Of a DNA stretch of 64,000 bases, positions 4,551 through 44,964 are shown one piece after another. Origin of the DNA: Calditrichia bacterium (GTDB taxonomy: Bacteria > Calditrichota > Calditrichia > RBG-13-44-9 > J075). Under the pieces are notes generated by a model that worked only from the letters and a program-made list of their open reading frames with translations, did no database searches and was not told the DNA's origin. Position numbers and translations under genes: made by a program. Where the stretch lies: the NCBI GenBank assembly GCA_028284905.1, contig JANQQU010000089.1:124001-188000 (forward strand), read 5' to 3'. Every line of letters starts with the position of its first letter. Position 1 is the first letter of the stretch.

Positions 4551-5225
4551 TTAATCTTTCTGGTAAGTCATTTCGTCCATCCGCTTCTTCAACTGCTCAT
4601 TCGATTTCTGTAAAGCAAGCAGATACAATGTCAACTCTTCAACTTTCTGCAATAACTTCACTTGCATCTCTCCCAATGGAATACCTTCTACACGAATCTT
4701 CGTTTCGGACGGCATGCCGGGCAATCTTTTTTCTTCATCGATAAACAATTCCAGTGCTTGTAATGACATCAGTGAATAATCGTCTGCGAAAACAAAATCG
4801 GCCCAGTTATCAGTATGCACCCGTATTTCCCGCGCGCCGATGGTACCTTCCACGGCCAACCGGTATTCACCGGGATCACTGGTGCCAATCCCAATATTAC
4901 CTTCCGGTGTCACCAGCAATTTTGTGCTGCCATCTACCCGAAAGCGAATTTCAGCATCATCATTAAGCACATTAAGGATGGCATTATCACCATCATAATA
5001 CAGTTGTAAAGCATCTGAGGAACTGCTGCCATTCTGAATACGTAGCTTGCCATAAATATGCAAACGATCATCCGGATCTGTGGTCCCGATACCCAACTTT
5101 GTTAGCTGAGTACTCAGATAGGCGCTATCCCCGTCTTTGATCCATAGCGATTTTGATTGGCTCCACCCCAGACTACTCAGGCAGAAAATCATTCCAACCA
5201 TAATAATACACCACTTATTGTTCAT
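4551..5225 (-). CDS. Secreted surface-fibre-like protein with GIGT repeats
   Basis: 224 residues with a signal peptide (WCIIMVGMIFCLSSLGWSQ). The body carries repeats of the type (L/N)GIGTTDP...L.I.G, found in phage tail fibres and trimeric surface fibres of Bacteroidota and relatives. The C-terminal part (LPGMPSE..., IPLGEMQVKLLQKVEELTLYLL, then a coiled coil) closely follows the segment that ends many Bacteroidota tail-fibre-domain proteins. It may be a degenerate chaperone or oligomerisation region. A strong ribosome binding site (AAGGGGGC) precedes the ATG. Similar in type to the product of 14908-15690. Probably exported; role unknown, possibly adhesion. Confidence 0.72.
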   Translation of the reverse strand: MNNKWCIIMVGMIFCLSSLGWSQSKSLWIKDGDSAYLSTQLTKLGIGTTDPDDRLHIYGKLRIQNGSSSSDALQLYYDGDNAILNVLNDDAEIRFRVDGSTKLLVTPEGNIGIGTSDPGEYRLAVEGTIGAREIRVHTDNWADFVFADDYSLMSLQALELFIDEEKRLPGMPSETKIRVEGIPLGEMQVKLLQKVEELTLYLLALQKSNEQLKKRMDEMTYQKD

Positions 5226-8782: not shown

Positions 8783-10087
8783 ATGAATAGGAAATCTATG
8801 CTATTTCGTTTATGCTTTATTTTTTTGGTCGGCAGTAATTTATCGGTGTATTCACAAAACGAAAGTCAGAGGGGCAGTGAATCACAATATATTAGCACTT
8901 TAGATTTTACGCTTTCAGTTGGAGACAATTATCATTCGAATACCCAGCAAGTAACCTTGAGTACGGATTTTACTCAGTATAAGATGATAACCAAATTATC
9001 ACTTTATTATTGTGGAACAGAGAATTTCGATGAAGCCATACCCGTTAAGATTAATCCCGCACGATCGCAAGCGCTTTACGCCTGGGAATATGGCCAGAAA
9101 AAGCACGTCATTTTTCATCCCAATACTCCGGGCAATATTACAGCATCCCCACTTAGTCCCGCGACAAATACTTTTATGGCCGGGGATTTTGCTGAAGATA
9201 ACAATTCCTATTATGCAATCGATCATGATGTCGATTCATTATTGACTGTAGACATCTTCACCGGGCAAGAAAATTTAGTCGCCCCGATTGTAACACCGTA
9301 TCTTGGTAAAAAAATTACCGGCATGGCCTATGATCACTCTGCCCAAACGATGTATGTAGTTAGCACCGACTCAGTAAAGAATTCCTGGTTATATACAATT
9401 GACTTAAACGATGGCAATTTATCCCTTATCGGTGCAATTGGATTTCCATCCATCGCTAATTTAGGTGATGCTCATCAGACTACATCGCGAGGTGGAAGTT
9501 TATATGGGATTGATGTCAATTCGAATCAATTGATTAGTATCTCTAAGACATCTGGACAAGGTACTATTGTTGGTAGTATACAAACAAATATTACCGGACT
9601 TATGCATGGAATGGACTATGATGCAACCCGACACAAAATGTATGTCACCATTACTCGACCGGGGAAAAGGAATGCAGAAGTCGGAGAAGTTAATTTAACA
9701 AGTGGCGCTGTCCAGAATTTAAAAGCAGTTGGGAATGCATCTCACCTAAGTTATGCTGCTGTTCATCCTTTTGAAGAACCGCGGGAAAGAACGGTTTGTA
9801 TTCCTCCGCCAGACCCTGATCCCATGGATCCTGCCCCAGGTGATTCAACGTATTACAAACCATGGATAAACAAGCGACACTCAGACTCTGGGAATCCATT
9901 AATACTTAATGTAGATGTTCGTACATCTTTAGGAGAGCAGGTAATTAAAAGTAATAAAACCCATTATTATCAACTTCGTATAGACAGAAAAGCAAAGACA
10001 GACGACCATGGTTGGAAAGATACAGAATGGGTATATTGGGGAACAATAGATATAACGATAGAGCCATCCGGTTCCAGTGGAGGTTAA
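8783..10087 (+). CDS. Secreted propeller-like protein, unknown function
   Basis: 434 residues with a signal peptide (MLFRLCFIFLVGSNLSVYSQ). Residues ~130-320 contain repeated units such as GMAYDHSAQTMYVVS...LYTIDLNDGNLSLIG and GMDYDATRHKMYVTI...GEVNLTSGAV, the pattern of beta-propeller blades (DUF4394/WD40-like). A proline-rich linker (PPPDPDPMDPAPGD, about 340-355) leads to a C-terminal ~80-residue beta-rich domain. GAGG precedes the ATG. The CHAT protease gene begins 24 bp downstream, so the two are probably co-transcribed and the protein could be a partner or substrate of that protease (inference). Confidence 0.65.
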   Translation: MNRKSMLFRLCFIFLVGSNLSVYSQNESQRGSESQYISTLDFTLSVGDNYHSNTQQVTLSTDFTQYKMITKLSLYYCGTENFDEAIPVKINPARSQALYAWEYGQKKHVIFHPNTPGNITASPLSPATNTFMAGDFAEDNNSYYAIDHDVDSLLTVDIFTGQENLVAPIVTPYLGKKITGMAYDHSAQTMYVVSTDSVKNSWLYTIDLNDGNLSLIGAIGFPSIANLGDAHQTTSRGGSLYGIDVNSNQLISISKTSGQGTIVGSIQTNITGLMHGMDYDATRHKMYVTITRPGKRNAEVGEVNLTSGAVQNLKAVGNASHLSYAAVHPFEEPRERTVCIPPPDPDPMDPAPGDSTYYKPWINKRHSDSGNPLILNVDVRTSLGEQVIKSNKTHYYQLRIDRKAKTDDHGWKDTEWVYWGTIDITIEPSGSSGG

Positions 10088-10111
10088 TCAATAGTTAAAT
10101 CCCATAAAAAA

Positions 10112-13100
10112 TTGGTTCCAAACCTGGGGAGTAATCAAATCAGAACAAGGCTTATAAAAGTCTTACTGTTTACGGTAGCCTTCTTTTTTTTGCTGATAAA
10201 TTGCGAACAGCTTGAGGAACCGCCCAAAACACTGAGCAACTGCAGAGAGAATTTAGAGATTGATAATCTGGAGGAGCATCTATCAGTAACGGCACTGCTC
10301 GATTCTGCAAATATGTGGTATGCGCAATCAAATTATGATTGCGCATTACCTTATTTTAGAAAAGCTTTGAATAAGTATAAAAATCAGCAATGGGCAAAAG
10401 AAGATACTACTATTTGGCCTTCATATTTTTTAGCCATTAAACGTACCGCTTATATCCTAACGATAAAAGATAGCATCGAAGCGACCAGATCCTTGCTAAA
10501 TCAAGCTATCTCGTCAGGAATTAAACATCTAGGGGCTAACCATTCCGATATTGCCTACTTATACAATGATCTCGCAATCTGCGCCCTGCGGCAAAATAAG
10601 AGTCAGAAAGCGTTAGCGATTGCCCTACAGGCAGATTCGCTGCTTCGCCAAACCCAGATAAATGACAGTACAATATTTAGTAGAATCAATAGTATACTGG
10701 GGCTTATTTATCAACAAAAAGGGTATTTTAATAACGCCCTGGATCATCTCCTTAAATCACTTAAAATTCTTCAAAAAATAGATGATGCCGACTCTCTGAA
10801 AGTTGCTGCGAATTATCACAATCTTGCTTCGATATATGATGAAAAAGGTGATTACAAACGTGCATTAAACTACTATCAACAATCATTGAAATTAAAAAAA
10901 CGACGATTTGGCGAAGGCCATATCAGTGTAATTAATACCTACCAGAATATCGGTGTAACGTTGGACTTAAAAGGCGATATCGACCAAAGTCTGGCCTATT
11001 ACCAAAAGGCGCTTGATTTAATGGATAAATACGCCATCAACAACAATCGCTTGAAAGCGAAGCTTTATCACAATATTGCGATTATTTATAAAGATAAAGG
11101 CAACTATCAAGCGGCTTTAAATTACCATCAATTGGCCCTGACTATGAAAACCGGCCGTGATAACATTACCAATTCCTATATCGGCATCGCCAATGTCTAT
11201 TTTCAGATGGGCGATTATAATCAGGCAGAAAAATATTATTTTAAGACGCAAAAAAATTTGGAGGATTCATCCGATACGCCCAATTATCCTTTATTGGCAA
11301 TCGCCCATCAGGAATTCGGTAAATTCTACCTTCATACAGATAGTCTCAAACATGCTGCACAACATTTTCAAACAGCGATTGACCTGCAGAAAAGTTACCT
11401 GGGAGAAAGGCATCCACTGCTTGCGGAAAGCTATGTAAGGATGGCGGAAATTGCTGGCAAACAAGAAAATGTAAGCGCCGCTCTTGATTCTATTTCTGCC
11501 GCATTTATGGCAAATAATATCGAAAATATCCAGAATCCTGTTCCCTTTTTGTCCAGAAAAGCAATGTCCAGGAAAATCCTTCTGGAAACTTTTTATCGAA
11601 TGGGAATTATTCTTTCTGAGAATGCCAGCAAAAATGATGATATCCACTTAATGAAAAAGGCTATCCTTCCCCTTCGCAAGGCAGTTGCACTGATTGAAGA
11701 AATTTATCATGATTATCGTCAGGAAGGTTCCCGCCTTTTTCTCCGCGAGAAATCTCAGAAAATTTTTGAAGCGGCGATTCACTGCGCACTCAATCTCTAT
11801 AAGGATAGCAGTAATAAAAAATATGCGGAAGAAGCATTCCAATTAATGGAACGCGGAAAGGCCAGTTTATTACGACAATCTTTTCAGGACTCCCAAGCGA
11901 AGCATTTTGCCGGCATCGCCGATTCCCTCTTGCAGCAAGAAGACGATATTAAGATCGACCTCGCTTACTATGAGACCGAACTGCAAAAGGAACAGCGCAA
12001 GGCACATCCGGATGAAAAAAAACTGCGGGACTTCCAGGCCAAACAATTTGATTTAAAACAATCCTATGATGCTTTGATCGCTGAATTAGAGGAAAAGAAT
12101 CCGGCTTATTTTCAACTTAAACATCGTAAGGATGAACTCTCATTAGCAGATTTGCAATCCACGCTTCCATCCCATAGCGTGCTGGTTTCTTATTTCGAAG
12201 CAGAGAAACACCTGATCATTGCAACGGTTACCGCAAAAAGGCTTCTGGTACGTTCAGTAGCGAAACCCCTTGAATTTGATAAATCCGTTGCCACCTTTAT
12301 AAAGTCCCTACGAACTGAGTTTCATCAACGGGCTTATTTAAAGCATGGCCAGGAATTGTATCAATGCTTAATTGCCCCGATCGAAGATGTGCTCGCCGCT
12401 CATAAAGGGGTGATTTTTATACCGGACGGCGTATTGCATTATATCCCCTTTGAAGCCTTGATTGATCCCGCCCTCCTGACATCGACACCAGAAAATGAAA
12501 TCGCATTTTCAAAGCTGCCATATTTGATTAAAAATTTCGATATATCCTATCATTATTCGGCTGCTCTGTACCGCCAAACGTTGTTAAGTGGCAAGGAAAA
12601 AACAGTTAGCAATAAAGGATTTATCGGATTTGCGCCAATCATTTGGCCGGAGAGTGAGGGAGAAAAAGATCAGCTGATGGCATCTGCAGAGATCCAACCG
12701 GACAACATCCGTAGTGCTTACCGGCAGTCCCACTTTCCGCTCCCCTTCACCCGCCTGGAAATAGATTCGATAGCCTTCGCTTTTCGGGCACGGGGTCATC
12801 AGGCAAAAACATTGTTTTTCGATAAAGCATCGGAGGGCGCATTCAAGCGCAGCACCGGCAACTTTCGCTACGTGCACCTTTCGACACATAGCAAAGCAGA
12901 TGCAAACTTACCGGCGCTATCGAATGTTGCCTTTTTTCCTTCCCCGGACTCATTATCGGTTTTATCAGATCAAAGTGAGACCAAGCAAAATCATCAAAAA
13001 CAGGATGATGGCTTTCTGTACAGCGCCGAAACCTACAATCTTGATCTTAATGCAGATCTTTTGGTTTTAAGCGGCTGTGAAAGCGGCCTGGGGAAATTAA

Positions 13101-13345
13101 CCCGAGGGGAAGGTTTAATGTCGCTTACCAGAGGATTCCTCTATGCGGGTGCGAATAACATCGTTGTCTCCCTCTGGAAAGTGTATGACAAAGAAACCAG
13201 TGCCTTAATGATTAATTTTTACCGGGAAGTTTTGAAGGAACGCTCTTATTCTACCGCCCTTCGACAGGCAAAATTAAAATTGCTGGAAAATGAAGATACG
13301 GCTTTTCCCAGCTATTGGAGTGGCTTTGTGCTCATCGGAAACTAG
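10112..13345 (+). CDS. Exported TPR-CHAT domain protein (caspase-like protease)
   Basis: 1077 residues from a TTG start. A hydrophobic N-terminus (VLLFTVAFFFLLINC) ends in a Cys, suggesting export, perhaps as a lipoprotein, although Asn at -1 is unusual for a lipobox. Residues ~145-480 hold about eight tetratricopeptide repeats, e.g. NLASIYDEKGDYKRALNYYQ. A coiled-coil stretch at ~600-680 links to a C-terminal CHAT domain (~700-1077). The predicted catalytic dyad is His926 (HLSTHS) and Cys989 (LSGCESG). CHAT proteins are caspase-relative proteases; TPR-CHAT architecture is also that of the Craspase protease, but no CRISPR genes are here. It follows a secreted protein gene and meets an anti-sigma factor gene tail to tail with a 4-bp overlap. 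Confidence 0.88.
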   Translation: MVPNLGSNQIRTRLIKVLLFTVAFFFLLINCEQLEEPPKTLSNCRENLEIDNLEEHLSVTALLDSANMWYAQSNYDCALPYFRKALNKYKNQQWAKEDTTIWPSYFLAIKRTAYILTIKDSIEATRSLLNQAISSGIKHLGANHSDIAYLYNDLAICALRQNKSQKALAIALQADSLLRQTQINDSTIFSRINSILGLIYQQKGYFNNALDHLLKSLKILQKIDDADSLKVAANYHNLASIYDEKGDYKRALNYYQQSLKLKKRRFGEGHISVINTYQNIGVTLDLKGDIDQSLAYYQKALDLMDKYAINNNRLKAKLYHNIAIIYKDKGNYQAALNYHQLALTMKTGRDNITNSYIGIANVYFQMGDYNQAEKYYFKTQKNLEDSSDTPNYPLLAIAHQEFGKFYLHTDSLKHAAQHFQTAIDLQKSYLGERHPLLAESYVRMAEIAGKQENVSAALDSISAAFMANNIENIQNPVPFLSRKAMSRKILLETFYRMGIILSENASKNDDIHLMKKAILPLRKAVALIEEIYHDYRQEGSRLFLREKSQKIFEAAIHCALNLYKDSSNKKYAEEAFQLMERGKASLLRQSFQDSQAKHFAGIADSLLQQEDDIKIDLAYYETELQKEQRKAHPDEKKLRDFQAKQFDLKQSYDALIAELEEKNPAYFQLKHRKDELSLADLQSTLPSHSVLVSYFEAEKHLIIATVTAKRLLVRSVAKPLEFDKSVATFIKSLRTEFHQRAYLKHGQELYQCLIAPIEDVLAAHKGVIFIPDGVLHYIPFEALIDPALLTSTPENEIAFSKLPYLIKNFDISYHYSAALYRQTLLSGKEKTVSNKGFIGFAPIIWPESEGEKDQLMASAEIQPDNIRSAYRQSHFPLPFTRLEIDSIAFAFRARGHQAKTLFFDKASEGAFKRSTGNFRYVHLSTHSKADANLPALSNVAFFPSPDSLSVLSDQSETKQNHQKQDDGFLYSAETYNLDLNADLLVLSGCESGLGKLTRGEGLMSLTRGFLYAGANNIVVSLWKVYDKETSALMINFYREVLKERSYSTALRQAKLKLLENEDTAFPSYWSGFVLIGN

Positions 13346-14034
13346 GGCGCAAAGAAAAATGGGCGGCGATAATAGAATCGGCCGATATGCAGTTGGTCGG
13401 TTTCATCCAACAATACCCAGTAGTAGAGCCCGGGCGTCAGCACCTCTTGTAGACGATATTCGCTGCCACTAATCTGCCGTCGGAAGATTTCCTGACGCTG
13501 GTTATCAAAAATCAGCAATTCGTAATTGCCAACCGCAACAGCATTTTTAAATTCCCAACGAAAAAGCACCTCCCCGCTTACGTTTGCATCATTGACAGGC
13601 GTCAGGGTTAAATCCGATGTCGTAGAGCGTTGAAACTGGGAAATCCGTGATTCCAGAAAACCGTGCGGCGTAAAATTTTCCCCGTAGGTTTGCCCGATTT
13701 GGTAATCCTGATATAAAAATGGGGCAAAGGTCAGCAACCCAAGAAAAACAGCCGTTAGCGCCAATCGTCCGTACGCCGGACGAAATTCTCCGGATGGCAA
13801 TTCAAAACTAAACCATTTTTTGAAGCGATGATACCAGGGCGTTGCCGGCTTCTCGAAAGCGCTCGCTCCCTCCTGCCGGATGACCGCAACACCTGTTTCC
13901 AGTAATTTCAAGGCGTTATAGCAGGTTTGGCAATCGAAATAGTGGGTTTCAAAATCCAGCATTTCCGTATCGCTCATCTCCCCGCTCAGATAGCGGACGA
14001 TCAAATCATCGCGGTTTTTTATTTCACAAGACAT
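13342..14034 (-). CDS. Zinc-finger (zf-HC2) transmembrane anti-sigma factor, paralogue A
   Basis: 230 residues. The N-terminus has the zf-HC2/ZAS motif FETHYFDCQTCYNAL (H-x3-C-x2-C), which in this family binds zinc and holds an ECF sigma factor. One membrane helix (LALTAVFLGLLTFAPFLY, about 98-115) follows. The ~115-residue outer part ends in a compact beta-rich domain with VLFRWEF, LLIFDNQRQEIFRR, LTPGLYYWVLL and LHIGRFYYR. The same outer domain occurs in the two anti-sigma proteins at 44130 and 45130. GAGGAAAAG lies immediately upstream of the ATG. It is 92 bp downstream of its sigma factor gene on the same strand, the usual sigma/anti-sigma order. Confidence 0.85.
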   Translation of the reverse strand: MSCEIKNRDDLIVRYLSGEMSDTEMLDFETHYFDCQTCYNALKLLETGVAVIRQEGASAFEKPATPWYHRFKKWFSFELPSGEFRPAYGRLALTAVFLGLLTFAPFLYQDYQIGQTYGENFTPHGFLESRISQFQRSTTSDLTLTPVNDANVSGEVLFRWEFKNAVAVGNYELLIFDNQRQEIFRRQISGSEYRLQEVLTPGLYYWVLLDETDQLHIGRFYYRRPFFFAP

Positions 14035-14126
14035 CTTTTCCTCATTTACTAAAACTGCCTAAATATATCTTTGATTCAGCAGCGTATATATTGAGTAAAA
14101 ATTTCATATTAAACGTTAAATTTCCC

Positions 14127-14699
14127 CTACGATTTCCCCTGTAAACATTTCAACAACAACTTTAGGGCATAATTAATTCTTTCGCTCACCCGGCGCCGTT
14201 CCATATCGAGCATTTCGGCAATATCCCCAATAGATAAATCCTGGTGAAAGCGCAAGGTAAGTGCGGTTGCATAATTGGTATTCAATTGAGCGAGACAAGC
14301 TTTTACCCGGAACTGCTGCTCCCGGGAAATCATCAGGTTTAGTGGCTTGGCAGCAACCGCCGGCTCGGGATGATCGTCCGGGGAACCGGGATCAAAATAT
14401 TTTCGTTCCTGTTTTTTCTTCCGGAAATACATCGCTATAGTATTATAAACAATCCCGGCGATAAAGGCGCCGAGTGATTTCCCTTTCTCCGGATCAAAAC
14501 TGCCCTTACGCAACGAAAGTAATATTCCTTCATTAATTTTCGCAAGTGTATCCGCCTGGTTTTCCTCCGATTCCCGGTGCATCCGTACTCGCACCATCGT
14601 TCGGATCTCATCCTGAAAACGGCGAAATACAGCCTCTTCCGCAGACTTGTCCCCACTCTTAATCTGTTCAACCCATTCAATTTCAGAATGTTGAGCCAC
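14127..14699 (-). CDS. ECF-type RNA polymerase sigma factor, locus 1
   Basis: 190 residues with sigma-2 (about 5-95; IEWVEQIKSGDKSAEEAVFRRF, then KGKSLGAFIAGIVYNTIAMYFRKKKQ) and sigma-4 (about 130-185; LSIGDIAEMLDMERRRVSERINYAL helix-turn-helix). I chose the GTG at 14699 because GAAAGGG lies 8 nt upstream and sigma-2 begins directly after it. The reading frame continues upstream to 15131, but that part is low-complexity and runs back through the divergent 14908 gene. The alternative is an ATT one codon earlier. It directs transcription of a stress or surface regulon, held by the anti-sigma factor encoded downstream. Sister of the sigma factor at 43541. Confidence 0.85.
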   Translation of the reverse strand: MAQHSEIEWVEQIKSGDKSAEEAVFRRFQDEIRTMVRVRMHRESEENQADTLAKINEGILLSLRKGSFDPEKGKSLGAFIAGIVYNTIAMYFRKKKQERKYFDPGSPDDHPEPAVAAKPLNLMISREQQFRVKACLAQLNTNYATALTLRFHQDLSIGDIAEMLDMERRRVSERINYALKLLLKCLQGKS

Positions 14700-14838
14700 A
14701 ATCAACGCCCTTTCAGGAATCCCCAGTGCTATTGTTTTTTGTGAGATTGACTGAATGTAAAACTTTTTTTCAATATATCCAATTGGGCAGCAAAGGGATA
14801 GATGTGGGCGCGCCACAATAGCAACATCCCAATAAAAT

Positions 14839-14907: not shown

Positions 14908-15690
14908 ATGAAACAGATGAATCGAATTTTTGTAATTGCAGTTATCTCTTTGTTAATCAGCAGTTTACTGAATGCACAGGATACCACCCTGGTGGTTTCG
15001 GAATCCGGCAATGTTGGTGTTGGCACTACCAACCCGACAGAACTACTGCATCTCCAGCAAGCAAATAAACCGACACTTAAGTTACAATCCGCAGGAGATG
15101 TTGCCGGTAGATTATCTTTTCGCCAGGCCAATGAAACCGGCGTGGATATCTTTTACAACAGTGTTGATGATGGTCTGTCTTTCGAAACATTTGGGGGCGG
15201 CGCCTCTTTGGGTATTCCTCTCTATCTAAAACAAAACAATGGCAATGTTGGCATTGGCACAACTGCACCTGCCAGTAAGCTGGAAGTCGCAGGCATGGTT
15301 CACGCTAGCAGCGGTGGGTTTAAATTCCCGGATGGCACTACCCAGGAAACAGCAACAAAGTTTATGAAATTCACCATAAATCTCGGTGCAACCGTTCCGG
15401 CAATTCAAGGCGGTAGAGCCTGGACGACGATTGGCCCGATAAACGGACTGGAGCCGGGTGCTACTGTCGTTGTTTCACCCAGCGAATTATTGCCACTCGG
15501 TGTCGTTCTCAACTATGCGTTGGTATCTGCCGAGAATCAAGTTCGTATACTTTGGATCAACGCTACATCGAATGAAATTACTGTGCCAGACATGGATTAT
15601 TATTTTACCGTATTCAATCCAGATAATCTTTCGGCGCCTAATAAAGTTAATCCTTCGAATATCTCTGTTATCAGTCAATCAACGGATTAA
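14908..15690 (+). CDS. Secreted surface-fibre-like protein with GIGT repeats
   Basis: 260 residues, strong ribosome binding site AAAGGAG at 14894-14900, signal peptide (FVIAVISLLISSLLNAQ). Residues ~25-125 hold two fibre-type repeats (GNVGVGTTNPTELLHL and GNVGIGTTAPASKLEVAG) followed by SGGFKFPDGTTQ, a motif of phage-tail-like fibres. The C-terminal ~130 residues are a beta-rich domain I do not recognise (TVVVSPSELLPLGVVLNYALV). It is divergent from ECF sigma factor 1, an arrangement that makes it a plausible target of that sigma factor (inference). The next gene encodes another secreted protein 84 bp downstream. Confidence 0.72.
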   Translation: MKQMNRIFVIAVISLLISSLLNAQDTTLVVSESGNVGVGTTNPTELLHLQQANKPTLKLQSAGDVAGRLSFRQANETGVDIFYNSVDDGLSFETFGGGASLGIPLYLKQNNGNVGIGTTAPASKLEVAGMVHASSGGFKFPDGTTQETATKFMKFTINLGATVPAIQGGRAWTTIGPINGLEPGATVVVSPSELLPLGVVLNYALVSAENQVRILWINATSNEITVPDMDYYFTVFNPDNLSAPNKVNPSNISVISQSTD

Positions 15691-17868: not shown

Positions 17869-18819
17869 ATGTCTAATTGTCGTACGAATAAGTCTATACA
17901 TCATTTCAAAAAATATATTGGTCTTACCTGCCTATTCTTTTTTGGCCTGATCATTCAGACCTTAAACGGGCAGAAGTTGGTGCAAACCAAACAATATTCA
18001 AATACCCTCTATGGGGTCGATATCGACCCGAAAGGCACCCGGGCATTTATTGCCGGGAAAGATTCGCTGGCAAGAGTCGTCAGTCTTTCCGGTGAAGAAT
18101 TGCAGGTTTTCAACGGCCATGAACATGCGATCTCATCAATAAAATATCTCCCCACACAGAATACAGTTTTAACTGGCAGTTATGATAACAGCGCAATTTT
18201 GTGGGACATGAATGGAGAGATTCTCAGCAGGTTCATCGGACACAAAAATGCCGTTATCAACATTGATGCGACGGATAAACTGGTCGCAACGGCAAGCCGG
18301 GATAAAACAGCTAAAATTTGGGATCATAAAGGTCAATTATTGCTAACCCTTACGGGACACTATAAGCAGCTGAATAGTATTCAATTTTTGGAGCAAAAAG
18401 GCTGGATTTTAACTGGAGGGGATGATGCAACGGTGAAGATTTGGAGTTTCAAAGGAGAGCTATTAACAAGCTCGGTGCGGCTGGATGCTGGCGTGCGGGC
18501 TATCGGGGTTGCACCTGGTGAACAACACATTTACGCCGGATTGCGGGATGGGACAATTTCCATACTGGATTTTCAAGGCAATTTGGAGGGAACCTTTGAT
18601 CCGCATAATGAGATGGTCAGCGAAATTATTGTTCTGGCCCATGAGAACCTGCTTATTTCCTGCGCTGGCGATAGAAAGATTGTCTTCTCTCATCTGAATG
18701 GAAAATTCGTCCGCTCTATCGAAGCGCATCAGTCTTATGTTGCTGGCATCGCTCATGCCGGTAATATGCTGCTCTCCGCAAGCGGGGATAATAGCCTGAA
18801 AGTATGGCGGTTAGAATAA
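17869..18819 (+). CDS. Exported WD40-repeat beta-propeller protein
   Basis: 316 residues. The ATG at 17869 is preceded by CTGGAGGAAAAG, which fixes it against an upstream in-frame ATG at 17803. A hydrophobic segment (IGLTCLFFFGLIIQTLNGQ) at about 18-37 is a signal peptide or anchor. Six to seven WD-type repeats follow, with characteristic GH...D..A.IWD/VKIW ends (SAILWD, TAKIWDHKG, TVKIWSFKG, SLKVWRLE). WD40 propellers are protein-binding scaffolds; the extracytoplasmic location is unusual for bacteria but common in this group. The next gene starts 15 bp downstream. Confidence 0.85.
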   Translation: MSNCRTNKSIHHFKKYIGLTCLFFFGLIIQTLNGQKLVQTKQYSNTLYGVDIDPKGTRAFIAGKDSLARVVSLSGEELQVFNGHEHAISSIKYLPTQNTVLTGSYDNSAILWDMNGEILSRFIGHKNAVINIDATDKLVATASRDKTAKIWDHKGQLLLTLTGHYKQLNSIQFLEQKGWILTGGDDATVKIWSFKGELLTSSVRLDAGVRAIGVAPGEQHIYAGLRDGTISILDFQGNLEGTFDPHNEMVSEIIVLAHENLLISCAGDRKIVFSHLNGKFVRSIEAHQSYVAGIAHAGNMLLSASGDNSLKVWRLE

Positions 18820-18834
18820 ATGGAAGGAGTAACT

Positions 18835-19320
18835 ATGCGTTTATATCATCAAAAAAATTATTGCGCACTGGCACTAGTGCTGCTGTTTACAATAAATAGT
18901 TTTGCCCAGATTTCTGCGGATGAGCAACAAAAATTAGAGGCAGTTGTTTTGTCCTATCATCAGGGATTTATCAGTGGCGATAGCGCGCAGACTGCCGGGG
19001 TGCTTTCCGATGGTATTATGATGTTCAATGGCAATGCCTCGGACGATCCGCTCGATTGGCAGGCGCATCTTTATTTTACCGGCGATACCTTGCACCAATG
19101 GGTTAAAGATATGATTACTTATGCCAGCCCGCATGAAAATAAAATAGTGTTCCTCAATACGCATATCCGTAACGGCGCAGCAGTCGTCGTAACAGCGGAA
19201 ACCGGCAGCAACAAATTTCGCAGTTGGAAAGATGAGAAAGTCGTGTATCTTTTAGGAAAAACAGGCGGGCGCTGGAAACTGACCGGATTTTTTATTCGGG
19301 ACGCAAAAAATCCGGAGTAG
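18835..19320 (+). CDS. Secreted NTF2-like (SnoaL/lumazine-binding type) protein
   Basis: 161 residues from the ATG at 18835, chosen because GGAAGGAG lies just upstream; an in-frame ATG at 18820 overlaps this ribosome binding site. Signal peptide LALVLLFTINSFAQ. The mature part has the cystatin-like NTF2 pattern: a long first helix (EQQKLEAVVLSYHQGFISGDSAQTAGVLSDG), then strands ending in VVYLLGKTGGRWKLTGFFIRD. Such proteins are small-ligand binders or enzymes, many of unknown role. Probably in an operon with the WD40 gene and the membrane protein gene 28 bp downstream. Confidence 0.72.
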   Translation: MRLYHQKNYCALALVLLFTINSFAQISADEQQKLEAVVLSYHQGFISGDSAQTAGVLSDGIMMFNGNASDDPLDWQAHLYFTGDTLHQWVKDMITYASPHENKIVFLNTHIRNGAAVVVTAETGSNKFRSWKDEKVVYLLGKTGGRWKLTGFFIRDAKNPE

Positions 19321-33389: not shown

Positions 33390-33938
33390 CTACAATTGCT
33401 TGACAATATCCCGGAGCATTCGCTCAATTTTTTCAGTCGGAGAATGCTCGAATTTTCGCGATTCCCGGACAATATTTCGAACTTCTCCACTCTCACCTTC
33501 CAGAAAACGCAATGTGATAACAGTTCTCCCTCGGCGCTGCTCCCATAAATCTTTGTTTAATAGTCTTTCGCTATCAATAATTCCCATAACGATACAATCT
33601 GCATTGAGGGTATCTGCCAGCGCCAGCAGCTCATTTTTTCCCAGAAAATAAAGATTATTAATCCCAGCCTGATTGAGACAGGCATTTATCTGACTACGAT
33701 CAACAACTGCCATCTGCTTTTCGCTAAAGAGATAAGTTGTCAACTGATCTGCAGCAACATGACCAACCCGGGCGGATATTCCCGCACCACGAACGGTAAA
33801 CGGCAGCACCGCAACTCTTTCGATTTTCTTTGTAACAAGTGATTGGCTTCCGGCGCATTGCATAAAAAATGCTACGGACATCAAACAAAGAGCGCATCGA
33901 AAAAATATTACCGAGCTTCGATATGAACCATAGAGCAT
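33390..33938 (-). CDS. Lipoprotein of CsgG/LpoB-like type, end of the secretion operon
   Basis: 182 residues. The N-terminus CALCLMSVAFFMQCAGSQ shows a lipoprotein-type signal ending at Cys. The mature part has IERVAVLPFTVRGAGISARVGHVAADQLTTYLF, MAVVDRSQINACLNQAGI and LNADCIVMGIIDSE. This is the pattern of CsgG, FlgT and LpoB-like domains (curli secretion channel, flagellar and PBP-activator lipoproteins). It is too short for a full CsgG channel. An excellent ribosome binding site, AGGAGG, precedes the ATG. It lies 45 bp after the pseudopilin gene and could be a pilotin-like or accessory lipoprotein of the secretin (inference). Confidence 0.68.
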   Translation of the reverse strand: MLYGSYRSSVIFFRCALCLMSVAFFMQCAGSQSLVTKKIERVAVLPFTVRGAGISARVGHVAADQLTTYLFSEKQMAVVDRSQINACLNQAGINNLYFLGKNELLALADTLNADCIVMGIIDSERLLNKDLWEQRRGRTVITLRFLEGESGEVRNIVRESRKFEHSPTEKIERMLRDIVKQL

Positions 33939-33983
33939 CGAGTCCTCCTGTTTTTCAATTTCTATTGCATGATTATCAACATA

Positions 33984-34394
33984 TTAATCCAGCGAGACCT
34001 GAATAATTTTCCCTGTTTCAGACACTTCAAATGTGCTGAAAACGCCATCACCATCATTATCGACAACAGACACTGCCCGGGCAGTATATCCCTGCAGATT
34101 TGCATCGAGAATGCCAATTTTATAGCGGGCATTTCCCCCACTGGTGATAAGCGCTTGTTGTTCGAAACCAATTTCAGCTAAAGTTTTCCCAAAACGGTCA
34201 TTTCCATAGCGATAGGTTTGCTGCAAAGTATGGAGATGCTTTAGCTGCAATCGCGCCTCGGTTTCCTTGGTACGATCGATGACCGCAGTGAATTTCGGCA
34301 AGGCCAGCAATACCAGAATACCAATGATAACAATGACTACTAAAATTTCTGTCAATGAAAAGCCGTCATCTTTGGCTAACATTTCCCGGAACAT
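33984..34394 (-). CDS. GspG-like major pseudopilin
   Basis: 136 residues. Prepilin signature DGFSLTEILVVIVIIGILVLLALPKF, with cleavage predicted after Gly and the conserved Glu at +5. The leader is 11 residues (MFREMLAKDDG). The C-terminal part has DNDGDGVFSTFEVSE, an acidic loop like the calcium-binding loop of GspG. It is processed by the prepilin peptidase encoded at 40221-40949 and assembles into the pseudopilus that pushes substrates through the secretin. GAAAGGGGGGAA precedes the ATG. Confidence 0.85.
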   Translation of the reverse strand: MFREMLAKDDGFSLTEILVVIVIIGILVLLALPKFTAVIDRTKETEARLQLKHLHTLQQTYRYGNDRFGKTLAEIGFEQQALITSGGNARYKIGILDANLQGYTARAVSVVDNDGDGVFSTFEVSETGKIIQVSLD

Positions 34395-34464
34395 AATTCC
34401 CCCTTTCGATAAAGCGAACAGTAAGAGATTTAACTTCTTAGAAACCGCTCAGCGCAGCTCCTCA

Positions 34465-35571
34465 CTAAAACATCACGGTGCTCAGGTTAAACAATGGCAG
34501 ATAAATGGAAATCAGAATAATACCGATGATTCCCCCAAGAAAAACAATCATCACCGGCTCGATAACTGATGCCAGCGTTTCAATTGAACTATCGATTTCT
34601 TTTTCATAATAGTCAGCGATGCGTAAAAGCATAGACGGCAGCTCTGCCGTTTCTTCACCGACGGCAATCATGCGAATGACCATCATTGGAAAGATTTTGG
34701 ACTGTTGTAAAGCACTGGTCAGATTCCCCCCTTTTTGGGCGGATGAATGCATCATCCCAATATCAGCTGCAACCAGATGATTGGCTGCAGCTTGCCGGGT
34801 GATATCCAATGCCCCCAACAACGGAATTCGGCTTTCTAATAATGTTCCCAGTGTACGGCAGAAGCGTGCGATATGGTTTTTACGAACTAAAGCACCGATA
34901 AAAGGAATCATTAATAACAGTCTTTCGAAAAAATGGCGCAGTTTATCGCTTTTTTGTATGCGTCGGTATAGTAAAAACATCATGAGGAAAATGGCAGGGA
35001 ATCCCCACATATACTGGCCAATCCAGCTGCTGATGGCAATTAGGATCCGGGTTGGCATCGGTAGTGTTGCATCAAAATCCGCAAAAATTTCTGCGAATGC
35101 CGGAATCACAAATTGCATGATAAACATTAATGCCATCAACGCTACGGCAATGACCAGTGCCGGATAGGTCATTGCCTGCAGCAGCTTTCGCTTTAGGTCG
35201 GCGATTTTTTCCAGGTAGGCAGCCACGCGCCCCAGCATTTCCGGCAGTTTACCGGTCATCTCCCCTACCGCAATTAACTGGCAATAGAATTCATTGAATA
35301 TTGACGGGTAGCTGCGTAAGATTTCATGAAGAGCAGCGCCTGAATTCAGACGATTTGCAACTTGCACCAATAGCTCAGGAAATTTCTGATGAGAATGCTG
35401 CCGGGCGAGAATATGAATACTATCAACCAATTGCATCCCGGCATTAAGCATAATTCCCAAATCGCGAGTAAACTGAAGGAGTACTTTTCCCGGCACCCGT
35501 TTGATTTGAGAATTTTCAGACGAATGTTCATCCCGAAAATCAGCGGCTTCCGAAATAGAAATGGAACGCAA
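34465..35571 (-). CDS. GspF/PilC-type inner-membrane platform protein
   Basis: 368 residues with the duplicated T2SF domain: first half about 30-150 (LLQFTRDLGIMLNAGMQLVDSIHIL), second half about 225-350 (ARFCRTLGTLLESRIPLLGALDIT). Membrane helices are at about 128-155, 180-200 and 340-362. The GEMTGKLPEMLGRVA and GEETAELPSMLLRIADYYE motifs are diagnostic. It forms the platform that couples the cytoplasmic ATPase to pseudopilus assembly; that ATPase (GspE/PilB) is not in the window. Start TTG with AGGAGGAAAA directly upstream. Slightly short for GspF (usually ~400). Confidence 0.9.
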   Translation of the reverse strand: MRSISISEAADFRDEHSSENSQIKRVPGKVLLQFTRDLGIMLNAGMQLVDSIHILARQHSHQKFPELLVQVANRLNSGAALHEILRSYPSIFNEFYCQLIAVGEMTGKLPEMLGRVAAYLEKIADLKRKLLQAMTYPALVIAVALMALMFIMQFVIPAFAEIFADFDATLPMPTRILIAISSWIGQYMWGFPAIFLMMFLLYRRIQKSDKLRHFFERLLLMIPFIGALVRKNHIARFCRTLGTLLESRIPLLGALDITRQAAANHLVAADIGMMHSSAQKGGNLTSALQQSKIFPMMVIRMIAVGEETAELPSMLLRIADYYEKEIDSSIETLASVIEPVMIVFLGGIIGIILISIYLPLFNLSTVMF

Positions 35572-35640
35572 TTTTCCTCCTGTTAATTGAAAGATTTGCT
35601 TAAAACTCGTGTAAAAAAAATGAACCCGATCATCACTTTT

Positions 35641-36120
35641 TTACTTCATCAATTCCAAGACACTTTCCGCACCTTGTCTAAAAAGATGTATTTGCGAGGT
35701 ACTAATTTTGACAACCCGAAAGTTTTCCAAAGTATCGCCAATCGCACAAATTTGTGTCGTCCCATCCGGCATCTCTATAATCGCCAGTGGCTGCTGAAGA
35801 TCGTCTAAAAATCCGCGATAAATTATTGACGGCAATTTTTCCGTCACTTTCCGCAAAGTGCTTCGCGGGCTTCTTTTCCGTTTTTTGGGTCTGTAAGGCT
35901 GAAAGGGATTTCGCATACCATTCAATCGACTCAGAATGCTACTATCACTCAACGCAATTGACCTGGCTGGTAATTCTGATAGTTGAATATCATCGCTGAC
36001 CTTTACTGTTGCTCCCGAAGCGCTGCCATTTAAGAGCTGATCAAATACTGCCCCCCAGACAAGCAGAGATATTCCTGCCAGGAAAATAATCAGCGTTTTA
36101 TTATGCCTGTTTTTATTCAT
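35641..36120 (-). CDS. GspC/PilP-like periplasmic protein
   Basis: 159 residues. One membrane helix (LIIFLAGISLLVWGAVFDQLL), then a linker and NPFQPYRPKKRKRSPR, then an HR-like small beta domain: YRGFLDDLQQPLAIIEMPDGTTQICAIGDTLENFRVVKISTSQIHL. That is the pattern of GspC/PilP homology regions, which connect the inner-membrane assembly to the secretin. The start is either TTG 36123 or ATG 36120; CAGGAG fits the ATG. It follows the PilO-like gene by 26 bp, the same relative order as pilO-pilP. Confidence 0.72.
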   Translation of the reverse strand: MNKNRHNKTLIIFLAGISLLVWGAVFDQLLNGSASGATVKVSDDIQLSELPARSIALSDSSILSRLNGMRNPFQPYRPKKRKRSPRSTLRKVTEKLPSIIYRGFLDDLQQPLAIIEMPDGTTQICAIGDTLENFRVVKISTSQIHLFRQGAESVLELMK

Positions 36121-36146
36121 CAACGCACTCCTGGTGGTTGGCCCAA

Positions 36147-36695
36147 TTAATTAAGCGAACTTGGAACATTTTCTTTTCGTAAATAACAGTGTATCGTTAA
36201 TTGACTCTCCACCAGCGAACGCCGTTTTTCCGGCGATTTAATAGAGATTTTATCTATCCGGCAACCTGGAATCTGCCTTTCCAGACGGTAAAGAAATTGA
36301 ATTAACGGAGCGAATTCCGCCTGTATTTTCAGGGTAATTTTTAAGATTTCGAAATTGCCTTCAGATTCAATCGGATGAGGACTTAACTGAACCAACTGAA
36401 TTCGGCAGCGCTTTACAAAATCGTTTATTTGCGCATATAATTTTCCTGATTCTTCCCGGTTAGCATATTTTTCCAGATCCGTTTGAATGTTTCTTTCCAG
36501 ATAGGCAATCTTTGCCCGCTTCTTCTGAATTTCCTGCTTTATCTGCTGGGAGGTTATATCTGCCGCTTCCCGATAAAGCAGCGAAGATGCCAACTGGTAA
36601 TTACTCTCTAATAAAGGGACAAGTGCTATGGTGCCTATTATTCCCAGCAGCAGCCAGCTGCCCCATAATCCATATTGCCAATTAAAGCTGCGCAT
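36147..36695 (-). CDS. PilO/GspM-like protein
   Basis: 182 residues. One N-terminal membrane helix (YGLWGSWLLLGIIGTIALVPLL), a coiled coil (about 45-85, TSQQIKQEIQKKRAKIAYLERNIQ) and a ferredoxin-like C-terminal domain (IQLVQLSPHPIESEGNFEILKITLKIQAEFAPLIQFLYRLERQIPGCRIDKISI). This matches PilO/GspM topology. It would pair with the PilN-like half of the next protein and align with the secretin. It overlaps the GspL-like gene by 14 bp. Confidence 0.75.
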   Translation of the reverse strand: MRSFNWQYGLWGSWLLLGIIGTIALVPLLESNYQLASSLLYREAADITSQQIKQEIQKKRAKIAYLERNIQTDLEKYANREESGKLYAQINDFVKRCRIQLVQLSPHPIESEGNFEILKITLKIQAEFAPLIQFLYRLERQIPGCRIDKISIKSPEKRRSLVESQLTIHCYLRKENVPSSLN

Positions 36696-38130
36696 CCAAT
36701 CGAATCCGAAATTGTGTTAGTTCCTGATAGGGCAATTGCCATTTCCGCTTAATTTTCCCTGATTCAAGCAGAGAGATATCAAGCAGTGTAACATTTTTCG
36801 AAAATCCCAATTCTTCCAGCAATTGCATCCATTGGGAAACAACTTCTGCTGCCGGTGATAAACCGGCGATCTGAATACTTATTTTTTCTTCCCCGGCCGG
36901 TAATATTTCAGCGGATGTTAACCAAATCTCTTGCGGCAGAGATTCCGCAATCTGAAAAAGATAATTTGCACTGTTACTTTCCCGTTGAACCGGGACACTG
37001 AATTCCGGTATTTTCTCCTGTAGCAGCGTATAATTTACATTCAGAGAATCCCTTTCCCGGATCAAAGGCTGCAAGGATGTTTCCCGAAAATTTTCCGCCT
37101 GCATCGCTCGCTTCAGCATGCCTTCGGTAATTGAGAAAGTCAGGAGGATGAGCATCAACATTCCACCGAATAGTAGCACGCTTTTTTTCAGGAGATGCTG
37201 GTAATATGCTTCATTCCGTCGTTCTTTCGATTTCCCATCGAGCATATCAAATTTATCTTCCCGGTTAACGAACGGATTGAGGCAAGCAGCAGCTGTTGAG
37301 AGATACGAATTCTGTGGGAAAGGCAGTTCCTGGTGAAAAGGTTGCAGACCTTCGTTTTCAAAAAATGTTACCAATCCAGCATCGGTACCCTCGTTTCTGC
37401 TGATTAAATAATGATATTCTTCCGACCCGCGATCCTCTCCAAATACCGTATTCATTGAAGCACGAACTTCCCTTTCGAATGCTGTTCCATTATCAACTTT
37501 CCCGCTATAAAGCGCTGTAAATTTCCCAGCTCTATAAAACAACATTAAAACATCTGCATTACAGAGGTCTACTAAGACGCCGCTAAATTTAGCATTACTG
37601 ACCGTTAACAGATTATCCAACACCGTGTTTCCGGCAATAATCTGGAATGCTTCTACTTGATTTAATTCCTGCCGGTATTTTTCCAATACATGCCGATGCT
37701 GTAACAATACCAACAGGGTCAGTTCTGTGTCTGTTGCCTCCAGTATTTTGTAATGCAGGCTAAATCTTTCCGCGGAAATTCCCGGTAACAAAAAACGATT
37801 CGCATGTTGAAATAAATAGCCGGGAATCTCATTTACGCGCATCAGCGGTATTGTCACCTTCTTAAGCAAAGTTGAAGTTTGCGGAAGAAGAATCGTTGTA
37901 AAATGAGGCTTAATGCCCAACGTTTTCTTCACAGTTAATATTTGCTTTCCCAGGTGCATATTATCCTTGAGCGGGAGATTGGTAACAGTCTTAATTTGAT
38001 ATCGGGCAAGCCAGCGGCGGCAGACAACAAAGTTTAAACTATCAGCATTTATTTTCACCGCCAGGCTAACATCTCCGGCATGCAGGAATTGGTAGATTTT
38101 TTCCACAATGGTCATCAAACGAACACTCAT
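36682..38130 (-). CDS. GspL-like protein (PilM and PilN in one chain)
   Basis: 482 residues. Residues ~1-290 are a PilM/GspL actin-like cytoplasmic domain (LPQTSTLLKKVTIPLMRVNEIPGYLFQHANRFLL, VLVDLCNADVLMLFYRAGKFTALYSGKV). A membrane helix (VLLFGGMLMLILLTFSITEGML, about 315-336) is followed by a coiled coil and a PilN-like ferredoxin domain (NYLFQIAESLPQEIWLTSAEILPAGEEKISIQIAGLSPAAEVVSQWMQLLEELGF). In type IV pili these two parts are separate proteins; one chain is the GspL arrangement. It recruits the assembly ATPase. Overlaps the secretin stop by 4 bp. Confidence 0.8.
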   Translation of the reverse strand: MSVRLMTIVEKIYQFLHAGDVSLAVKINADSLNFVVCRRWLARYQIKTVTNLPLKDNMHLGKQILTVKKTLGIKPHFTTILLPQTSTLLKKVTIPLMRVNEIPGYLFQHANRFLLPGISAERFSLHYKILEATDTELTLLVLLQHRHVLEKYRQELNQVEAFQIIAGNTVLDNLLTVSNAKFSGVLVDLCNADVLMLFYRAGKFTALYSGKVDNGTAFEREVRASMNTVFGEDRGSEEYHYLISRNEGTDAGLVTFFENEGLQPFHQELPFPQNSYLSTAAACLNPFVNREDKFDMLDGKSKERRNEAYYQHLLKKSVLLFGGMLMLILLTFSITEGMLKRAMQAENFRETSLQPLIRERDSLNVNYTLLQEKIPEFSVPVQRESNSANYLFQIAESLPQEIWLTSAEILPAGEEKISIQIAGLSPAAEVVSQWMQLLEELGFSKNVTLLDISLLESGKIKRKWQLPYQELTQFRIRLDAQL

Positions 38131-40022
38131 GGCAACATCCAGTTATCGCTATAGGACAGGTGGGGCGTCACATAAATAATCAGCTCGCTCTTGGATTTAT
38201 TAACATTACGGCTGCTAAAGAGTTTTCCCAGCAGCGGCAAACGGCCGAGCAGCGGGAAGCGCCGGGTTGATTCGGTTTCCCGCTCTTCAATCAATCCTCC
38301 GAGAACGATGGTTTCCCCATCGCGCAATCGCACGGTAGAGGTTAATGATCGGCTGCGGATATTTGGTGGTAATCCCGCTTCATTCTCGCCATCAACGGTA
38401 TTAAACTCGGGATGAATTTCCACGGTAATTTCTCCGGAAGCGCTGACCCATGGGGTGATTTCCAGAGAGATGTTAATATCCACAGTTTCAAAGCGTTCCG
38501 TGGTAGCGATGTAGGGCAGATTTTGATTCACATTGCCACCAAGCGGTGTTTCCGTATCCAGCTTAAAATAGCGGGTTTCCCCGATTTTCAATTGGGCCGG
38601 ATGCCCATTCAAGGTTGAGATCTGAGGCTTGGAGCGAATATCGACCTTCTCCAATTTTTCCAATGCGGCAATCTGCAGATAAAAATCTTCCGGGAGCTTG
38701 CCAATATTCACCCCGGAAAAATATTTGCCCAGTGAAGTCAGGTAATCATTTAGCTCTCCACCACTAAACAAATGGCGAATCTCTGGTAGCCAGCGGGTGG
38801 CGTCAACATTTCCGCTGGAATCCTCATCTACCGGCGTACCTTCGCCGGCAGAGAGCGTTAGTTCAGAAACATCCGTATCGTTAAAATCCACCACCAACAC
38901 TTCAAAGAAAATTTGCGGGATTGGTTGATCCAGTTCGTGAATAATTTCTGCCACTTCAGACAAAACATCCCCGGCACCGGTAACAAGCAACGCGTTATGC
39001 TCCCGAATGATCTTCATTTCCGCATTACGAACGGCCTGTTTCGGCAAAACATCGAGAATGCCATCCACTTTTAAATGCTTTAATTTCAACAAACGGGAAC
39101 TGCTCAGCCCCTGATTATTTTTCCCGCCAATCAAATACACGTTTCGGGATTTTTTAAAGGTGAATTCGCTACTCAACAAGATCAGGTTTAGTCCTTCCTC
39201 CAGACTCACATTTGCCATCCGCGCATTCACTTTTCCCTTTGCTTCTCCCAGCACAATAAAATCTGCAGCGCTCTGCCGGGAAATTTCACTCAAGACATCC
39301 CCCAGGGAGATATTTTGCACATCAATCGACAGGCCATTCTGGTTATAATCTATCCAGAAAGTACCTTTAGCACCTTTTGCTGTTGTTGGGGAATAACCAT
39401 CGACAGCGCGAACAAAATATCCATGTGCTGCTTTTTTCAGGAGGAACCCATTCGCCCGAAACAACTCTTTGAGACCTGTTTCAAATGGTGCATTTTTCAG
39501 ATTCCCGGAAATATGTCCATTTACTGCCTTATCACAGAGTACCGTTTGTCCGCTCACCCGGGCTATCTCGGCAACAACTTCGCGAACGTCTTCTCTGTGA
39601 ACATTCAGCGATAGTTTACCGTCGTGATATTCGATGTCCCAAATCTTCGGTGCTGGTAAGGGGGCCGGCGCATTAACGATTTTGTAAATTTCACCATACT
39701 TTTTTATCGACAGTTGATTGTCATTAACGATATAATTCAGCGCATCTTCCAAACTGATATCAGATAAATTGAGGGTGAGGCGCTTATCGACATCATTGGC
39801 AATCAATAGGTTAACCTGATATTTTTTTGCCAGCATTCGAATAACATCCCGAACATCCGCATCGCGAACATTCAGCGAACTAAGGCGTTGCTGGAAGGCC
39901 GCTACAGGTGGCGTTTTCTCCTCGCCGATTAATGGATGGCAAATTAGCACCAGGCAAATGAACGCCAGTTGACCGGCGCGCCTCCATCGGGAAAAGCAGA
40001 TATGTTTTTTCCAGAAATTCAA
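38127..40022 (-). CDS. Secretin (GspD/PilQ type) outer-membrane channel
   Basis: 631 residues from a TTG at 40022, chosen because AAAGGA lies 6 nt upstream; the same frame extends to a TTG at 40073. Signal peptide RRAGQLAFICLVLICHPLIG. Three consecutive STN/AMIN-like modules follow (starting LNVRDADVRDVIRMLA, LNVHREDVREVVAEIA and IDVQNISLGDVLSEIS), then an N1 domain (LKLKHLKVDGILDVLP) and the secretin C-domain ending VRLRDGETIVLGGLIEERETESTRRFPLLGRLPLLGKLF...LIIYVTPHL. It forms the dodecamer- to pentadecamer-type channel for export or a pilus. First gene of the minus-strand operon. Confidence 0.92.
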   Translation of the reverse strand: MNFWKKHICFSRWRRAGQLAFICLVLICHPLIGEEKTPPVAAFQQRLSSLNVRDADVRDVIRMLAKKYQVNLLIANDVDKRLTLNLSDISLEDALNYIVNDNQLSIKKYGEIYKIVNAPAPLPAPKIWDIEYHDGKLSLNVHREDVREVVAEIARVSGQTVLCDKAVNGHISGNLKNAPFETGLKELFRANGFLLKKAAHGYFVRAVDGYSPTTAKGAKGTFWIDYNQNGLSIDVQNISLGDVLSEISRQSAADFIVLGEAKGKVNARMANVSLEEGLNLILLSSEFTFKKSRNVYLIGGKNNQGLSSSRLLKLKHLKVDGILDVLPKQAVRNAEMKIIREHNALLVTGAGDVLSEVAEIIHELDQPIPQIFFEVLVVDFNDTDVSELTLSAGEGTPVDEDSSGNVDATRWLPEIRHLFSGGELNDYLTSLGKYFSGVNIGKLPEDFYLQIAALEKLEKVDIRSKPQISTLNGHPAQLKIGETRYFKLDTETPLGGNVNQNLPYIATTERFETVDINISLEITPWVSASGEITVEIHPEFNTVDGENEAGLPPNIRSRSLTSTVRLRDGETIVLGGLIEERETESTRRFPLLGRLPLLGKLFSSRNVNKSKSELIIYVTPHLSYSDNWMLP

Positions 40023-43540: not shown

Positions 43541-44101
43541 ATGAAGGAATCGGCGCAAATATCCGAAATAGATTTGGTTGCCAGAATTAAAGATGGCGAT
43601 CCGGCAGCAGAAAGCGAACTGATTAAGCGTTTTAAAGTGATTGAAAGAATCGAGGTTATGATTCGTGCCCGTATCTATACGAATCGGGAAGACCAGGACG
43701 ATTTAATCAATGATGTGCTGTTATCGGTTGTAACGAACTTACGGCGGGGCATGTATAATCCGGAAAAGGGTGCCCTTGGCTCATATTTATGGGGAATTGT
43801 CCGTAACAAACTTCGCGATTTTATGAAACCGAATGCTGCCCGGGAGCGCAATATGGCTGCCCTGGAGCCGAATCTTGTCGACTTTCATGAGTCCGCGCTT
43901 GTAAAGAATGAGCGTAAAAATATGTTAAGAACGCTGGTTAAACAATTGGACTGGAAATATCAGGAAATTCTGATACTCAGATATTATGAAGACCTCTCAA
44001 TCGATGACATCGCCGCACAGCTGGGACTGACGGCAATGCAGGTATATAACCGTATTCACTACGCCCTTGCATTAATGCGGGAAGGCTTCAAAAAAATGTA
44101 G
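43541..44101 (+). CDS. ECF-type RNA polymerase sigma factor, locus 2
   Basis: 186 residues. Sigma-2: SEIDLVARIKDGDPAAESELIKRFKVIERIEVMIRARIY, then DQDDLINDVLLSVVTNLRRGMYNPEKGALGSYLWGIVRNKLRDFMK. Sigma-4: LDWKYQEILILRYYEDLSIDDIAAQLGLTAMQVYNRIHYAL, a clear helix-turn-helix. GAAGGGGAT precedes the ATG. It is closely related in pattern to the sigma factor at 14127 (both have the YNPEKG/FDPEKG...LG motif). Two anti-sigma genes follow at 44130 and 45130, so it is probably held by one or both. Confidence 0.9.
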   Translation: MKESAQISEIDLVARIKDGDPAAESELIKRFKVIERIEVMIRARIYTNREDQDDLINDVLLSVVTNLRRGMYNPEKGALGSYLWGIVRNKLRDFMKPNAARERNMAALEPNLVDFHESALVKNERKNMLRTLVKQLDWKYQEILILRYYEDLSIDDIAAQLGLTAMQVYNRIHYALALMREGFKKM

Positions 44102-44129
44102 TTTCGGATTGGAAAGAAAAGAGCAAAAA

Positions 44130-44894: not shown

Positions 44895-44932
44895 ATTTTT
44901 AAAGCTATTATCCGCGCATTGAATTTTTCCAA

Positions 44933-44964
44933 GGCAGATGCCAGCGATTAATTAGGTATCTGCC
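44933..44964 (+). terminator. Possible hairpin terminator between the two anti-sigma genes
   Basis: GGCAGATGCC (44933-44942) pairs with GGTATCTGCC (44955-44964), 10 bp with one G-T pair and a 12-nt loop. No T-run follows, so it may be an attenuating or mRNA-processing structure rather than a full terminator. Confidence 0.4.

Follow-up and report, generated by a model that had tools for sequence, protein, structure and literature searches.

An exported TPR-CHAT protease convergent with a membrane anti-sigma factor and an ECF sigma factor in a Calditrichia bacterium: a candidate two-gene, envelope form of CHAT-controlled sigma signalling

To our knowledge, CHAT proteases are common in bacteria while few of their natural substrates are known, and we know of no inducing step for many extracytoplasmic function (ECF) sigma systems of Fibrobacteres-Chlorobi-Bacteroidetes bacteria. 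The RseA/DegS/RseP and RsiW/PrsW systems work by regulated proteolysis, in which a membrane anti-sigma factor with an outer part is cleaved first at site 1 and then at site 2. RseA, DegS and RsiW are cited in the work on Craspase, in which an ECF sigma factor inhibitor, Csx30, is cleaved by the TPR-CHAT protease Csx29 (PMC10028731). The ECF54 group has CHAT and subtilase neighbours; proteolysis has been proposed for it, and it is described as being without an anti-sigma factor (PMC8999054). In Myxococcus xanthus, DdvA is named a transmembrane anti-sigma factor in the titles of its PDB entries (8rot, 8rw5, 8rlz), and its loss activates its sigma factor, DdvS (PMC4374960). Here we describe a locus in a window of 64,000 nucleotides from a Calditrichia bacterium (contig JANQQU010000089.1, positions 124,001 to 188,000), in which the gene of an exported TPR-CHAT protease meets, tail to tail, the gene of an anti-sigma factor with an immunoglobulin (Ig)-type outer domain, followed by an ECF sigma factor gene. 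We read this locus, with a probability of roughly 0.6, as CHAT-controlled sigma signalling in a two-gene version that works in the envelope.

The predicted structure of the TPR-CHAT protein (pLDDT, predicted local distance difference test, 72) matched DdvA best in the PDB (8rw5 and 8rot, E=6e-13), followed by human separase and, further down, Csx29. The sequence-profile match to DdvA gave E=1e-6. On the anti-sigma side, a profile of 16 relatives matched RsrA best (E=1e-4), with RslA, DdvA and RsiW among the next matches; the aligned letters of the first residues of DdvA were the same as those of the separate DdvA entry 8rlz. At its C-terminus, DdvA has a CHAT domain in which both His and Cys are present as here. 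As DdvA carries a zinc anti-sigma start and a CHAT C-terminus in one chain, it joins what is split over two genes here. The two systems share the zinc-type anti-sigma domain, the transmembrane character, the TPR-CHAT fold and a cognate ECF sigma factor (PMC4374960). They differ in that DdvA is one polypeptide, whereas the window has two genes on opposite strands, and the outer part of the anti-sigma factor here is instead an Ig domain joined by an arginine linker.

The comparison with Craspase made in the preliminary description of this locus is a valid analogy, but among solved structures the closest relative is DdvA, a transmembrane anti-sigma factor. The Craspase/CASP system (Csx29-Csx30-CASP-sigma, type III-E CRISPR) has in common with our locus a TPR-CHAT protease with a His/Cys dyad, an inhibitor of an ECF-type sigma factor and the sigma factor itself (PMC10028731). 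In contrast, no Cas7-11 (gRAMP) is present at the locus, the CHAT protein is exported, the inhibitor is a membrane zf-HC2 protein, and the predicted cut lies after an arginine. The locus was also correctly described as free of CRISPR genes: no CRISPR or RAMP gene lies by it, and the RAMP genes of this genome are on contig C62 only. That contig (genome G000) also has a CHAT gene of a different type, some 15 kb away from a cluster of RAMP (type III CRISPR-like) genes (18153-18965 and 33830-39115). ECF54 shares with the window an ECF sigma factor with a CHAT protein in its neighbourhood, and differs in having no anti-sigma factor (PMC8999054), which here belongs to the module. With RseA/DegS/RseP and RsiW/PrsW the locus shares a membrane anti-sigma factor that has an outer part, and the same order of cleavage, site 1 and then site 2, is expected; the site-1 protease would be a caspase-like CHAT protein, not a PDZ serine protease or PrsW. 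Separase combines a helical-repeat superhelix with a CHAT-related protease fold, as here, but it is eukaryotic, much larger and has another substrate motif.

Contigs were scanned with the CHAT alignment alone, which gave 79 loci with 86 CHAT genes, a few of the loci duplicating family loci (L134=L080, L201=L090, L208=L112). A sigma or anti-sigma gene was found within 3 kb of 43 of the 86 CHAT genes. The linked genes showed 27 convergent, 10 upstream same-direction, 4 downstream same-direction and 2 divergent layouts, and came from Calditrichota, KSB1, Ignavibacteriota, Bacteroidota and Acidobacteriota. The preliminary description had named conservation of the neighbourhood as a test, and the neighbourhood is conserved across these five phyla. 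Within 1.5 kb downstream of CHAT, sigma genes reached a density of 17.6 per 100 kb; the internal control, 3-6 kb away, had 0.6-1.5 per 100 kb, which makes the excess 12-fold or greater. Because sigma genes are concentrated just downstream of CHAT, chance linkage is excluded. The layout of the window was found again in family genomes at L080, L084, L090 and L112. At a paralogous locus in the window's own genome (L042), the layout is the same: the sigma and anti-sigma genes converge on a TPR-CHAT gene, tail to tail and almost gapless, at 27% and, for the anti-sigma factor, 33% identity to the window locus. CHAT distances correlated with anti-sigma and sigma distances (r=0.50-0.63, 35 loci; no permutation was as high), consistent with joint inheritance of the module. 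Alternatively, the genes may be functionally unrelated neighbours whose convergent order persists by chance or through shared descent; gene sets on opposite strands need not be co-expressed. This explanation is disfavoured and we consider it highly improbable, as the five phyla keep the arrangement at 20-40% protein identity and in layouts that include convergent, operonic and divergent ones.

By sequence criteria, the TPR-CHAT protein of the window is exported. Its residues 14-31, ...KVLLFTVAFFFLLINC, followed by EQLEE, form a signal sequence: the n-region is basic, a hydrophobic stretch follows, and the lipobox-like end (LLINC) supplies the cysteine. Asn at the −1 position is unusual, and recurs in two family CHATs, L048 and L090 (FINC). 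Among related linked CHATs the N-terminal ends were lipobox-like or of the ordinary signal-peptidase I type; export was judged throughout by a hydrophobicity threshold. Pfam detected TPR repeats beside the CHAT domain. The zf-HC2 domain of the anti-sigma factor was weak by Pfam (E=0.006), but its H31-x3-C35-x2-C38 motif is intact and its gene lies beside the ECF sigma gene. Its topology consists of a single membrane helix and an outer domain. The sigma protein matched NCBIfam TIGR02937 (sigma70-ECF) with E=3e-16, and the Pfam models for region 4 and Sigma70_ECF were over the cut-off, while region 2 was weak. From family and adjacency, the zinc-domain anti-sigma factor probably binds and inhibits the neighbouring sigma factor.

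The compartments of the two proteins match across the family. Among 56 linked pairs, 40 combined an exported CHAT with a membrane anti-sigma factor, none an exported CHAT with a soluble anti-sigma factor, and 13 a signal-less CHAT with a soluble anti-sigma factor. Three pairs were apparently discordant: the L199 reading frame starts inside a truncated contig, the L080 upstream start is mis-called with the signal visible further inside the open reading frame (ORF), and the L166 signal is just under the threshold. The Ig-like domain (PGRYYW) of the membrane anti-sigma factors is also kept in the soluble ones, as expected if CHAT acts on the Ig domain or its linker. The preliminary description had placed CHAT and the anti-sigma outer domain outside the cytoplasm, and had named a cytoplasmic CHAT protein as refuting; the signal sequence with its lipobox-like cysteine, the membrane helix and the match of compartments all point to the extracytoplasmic location.

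The His/Cys dyad is intact in 56/56 linked CHATs, and in nearly all other CHATs too. No acidic S1 residues were found that separate linked from unlinked CHATs. The conserved dyad bears on another role for the TPR-CHAT protein, that of a non-cutting sensor on the Ig domain which alters the hold on sigma, or of a co-inhibitor which keeps the anti-sigma factor closed, perhaps as DdvA does within its single chain. TPRs are binding modules, DdvA is an anti-sigma factor with a TPR-CHAT outer part, and the activation of DdvS upon its loss (PMC4374960) would agree with such a role. We nevertheless consider it improbable, since binding alone would not need the His and Cys, and since the anti-sigma linker carries an arginine and a small residue that resemble a cut site.

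This linker, which connects the Ig domain to the membrane (or inner domain), was aligned for 66 distinct Ig-type anti-sigma factors. It follows roughly the motif F-x-P-x-P-x-[LY]-E, with an arginine about 8 residues on. A basic residue was found at this position in 62/66 sequences (Arg 58, Lys 4), and the next residue was Ser, Gly, Ala or Thr in most of them. When the linkers were shuffled and realigned (40 shuffles), no column rose above 26/66. The position was Arg in 28/28 CHAT-linked membrane anti-sigma factors. Arg136/Ser137 is the best candidate for the scissile bond in the anti-sigma factor of the window. Separase cuts after Arg, and clan CD proteases such as separase and metacaspases often cleave after a basic residue; as others of the clan do not, the arginine motif is suggestive only. 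Ig-type anti-sigma factors are patchy in distribution (2/295 genomes in one sampled class, that of a Sphingobacteriales genome, G099). The module has expanded greatly in a Bacteroidia bacterium of 7.6 Mb (G100), whose genome alone has more than 20 such genes (L213-L233); for roughly half of these, the stretch fetched also contained a CHAT gene. At 43541-45882 the window itself has a second ECF sigma gene followed by two tandem Ig-type anti-sigma genes (44109-44894 and 45091-45882), both with the linker arginine and no CHAT gene nearby. They are possible trans targets of the CHAT protein of the window.

In the mechanism that we propose, the zinc domain of the anti-sigma factor would hold the sigma factor at the inner face of the membrane. 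The TPR part of the exported TPR-CHAT lipoprotein would sense a signal or partner, and the protein would dock on the anti-sigma factor at its Ig domain and at the FxPxxxLE motif of its outer linker. Acting as a site-1 protease, it would then cut after the conserved arginine, here between Arg136 and Ser137. Without its Ig domain, the remaining stub would become accessible to an M50 site-2 protease, after which cytoplasmic proteases would free the sigma factor. Several M50 genes are present in this genome, and M50 proteases are common to most bacteria. The structural parts of this envelope hypothesis, which the preliminary description had put forward, hold at the level of sequence: the genes and their layout, a conserved neighbourhood, an exported CHAT with an intact dyad, a membrane anti-sigma factor with an outer domain, matched compartments and a candidate cut site in the arginine motif. 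From these we infer the contact between CHAT and anti-sigma factor, the cleavage and its site, the later proteolysis and the signal. We hold a broader reading more tentatively, at somewhat less than even odds. It proposes a widespread two-gene module, in which Ig-domain anti-sigma factors form a dedicated family whose site-1 protease is the exported, caspase-like TPR-CHAT, with the cut made behind a single conserved arginine; in a Bacteroidota clade the whole module would have moved to the cytoplasm, with loss of the protease signal peptide and the anti-sigma membrane helix. The module names a protease, a substrate and one testable bond. If the reading is true, the protease-to-sigma logic of Craspase would be a special case of a wider, CRISPR-independent design that includes DdvA. 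The cutting of a sigma inhibitor by TPR-CHAT (Craspase), CHAT as a neighbour of ECF54 and DdvA as a structural precedent are already known. The system of a separate exported CHAT with an Ig-type anti-sigma factor is apparently undescribed; no description of it was found in the openly licensed literature, and its absence from all literature is not established.

Several results weigh against envelope cleavage by CHAT. Anti-sigma factors without CHAT within 3 kb have the arginine motif almost as often, and the linker arginine may serve another protease or a CHAT encoded elsewhere, or have a structural role. Half of the CHATs (43/86) have no sigma or anti-sigma neighbour within 3 kb. In the CHAT-domain tree the compartment match comes down to about two independent switches, and the branch that holds one of these is long and insecure. 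CHAT distances were not significantly closer to those of the outer than of the inner anti-sigma part; there is a trend, and its interval includes zero. Over the full chain, the TM-score (template modelling score) against DdvA reaches only 0.22, and the CHAT model is middling in quality, although low whole-chain scores are expected from the flexible superhelix. The CHAT protein may instead be a member of the sigma regulon, an envelope effector with another substrate, while another protease inactivates the anti-sigma factor. ECF sigma factors often control adjoining genes, and the many CHAT-less loci with the same anti-sigma factor and arginine motif agree with this account, as do the CHATs without a sigma neighbour. 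We consider it unlikely, though less so than a non-cutting role. It does not explain why the anti-sigma factor loses its helix when CHAT loses its signal peptide and yet keeps the Ig domain, nor why DdvA joins both in one chain, and a simple search gave no shared promoter motif.

The coordinates of the locus are given in Table 1. All four genes lie where the preliminary description had put them, with the catalytic residues, the 24-bp spacing from the propeller gene stop to the TPR-CHAT start and the 4-bp tail-to-tail overlap of the TPR-CHAT and anti-sigma genes as claimed; only its end coordinate, 14699, differs, by 3 bases, from the probable GTG start of the sigma gene at 14702. The gap between the anti-sigma and sigma genes is 92 bp.

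Table 1. Positions of the genes, domains and key residues of the locus, numbered from the first nucleotide of the window.
Feature	Position	Strand	Remarks
Propeller-like ORF	8783-10087	+	434 aa, secreted; DUF4394-like match at 238-321; signal-like N-terminus
TPR-CHAT protease, exported, probable lipoprotein	10112-13345	+	1077 aa, TTG start
Signal sequence, lipobox-like end LLINC (Cys31)	10112-10204	+	Sequence
CHAT (caspase-like) domain	12344-13342	+	Pfam E=1e-51
Catalytic His926	12887-12889	+	Kept in all 56 linked CHATs
Catalytic Cys989	13076-13078	+	Kept in all 56 linked CHATs
Transmembrane anti-sigma factor	13342-14034	-	230 aa
zf-HC2 zinc-type anti-sigma domain, HYFDCQTC	13921-14007	-	Pfam and motif
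Anti-sigma transmembrane helix, about residues 88-112	13699-13773	-	
Arg136-Ser137, candidate scissile bond, anti-sigma outer linker	13624-13629	-	Basic in 62/66 relatives
Ig/FN3-like outer domain of anti-sigma factor, ends PGLYYW...GRF	13357-13620	-	
ECF sigma factor	14127-14702	-	191 aa, GTG start

The propeller-like gene and the CHAT gene probably form one operon. The propeller-like protein was considered as a conserved third component and rejected, as no relative was present at the other fetched loci; it is accessory at most. A simple search upstream of the propeller/CHAT and sigma genes for an ECF-type promoter (GGAAC-N16-GTC) and shared repeats gave nothing above chance. PADLOC returned TPR matches only and no defence family, and Rfam no RNA element. 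The locus is flanked by secreted proteins (4551-5225 and 14908-15690) without a Pfam match, which carry GNVGIGTTxP-type tail-fibre-like repeats.

Other CHAT neighbourhoods were also observed. Four Calditrichota loci (L048, L115, L126 and L128) share another recurring set, with an anti-sigma factor, membrane/helical proteins, a TPR-CHAT (lipoprotein-like in 3/4) and a Gly/Asp-rich protein of about 117 aa (GGGGPDDP), which might be a small substrate. The sigma gene lies upstream of the anti-sigma gene where the contig reaches. The assembly of the window (8.55 Mb) holds 19 CHAT genes. It includes several copies of large signal-less CHAT proteins that start with a PVIFLAFAND-type motif (L044, L052-L056). 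On contig C93 of the same genome (L040), a TPR-CHAT gene is followed by apparent CHASE2-type and FecR-type genes (N-terminal sequence only), another common CHAT neighbourhood.

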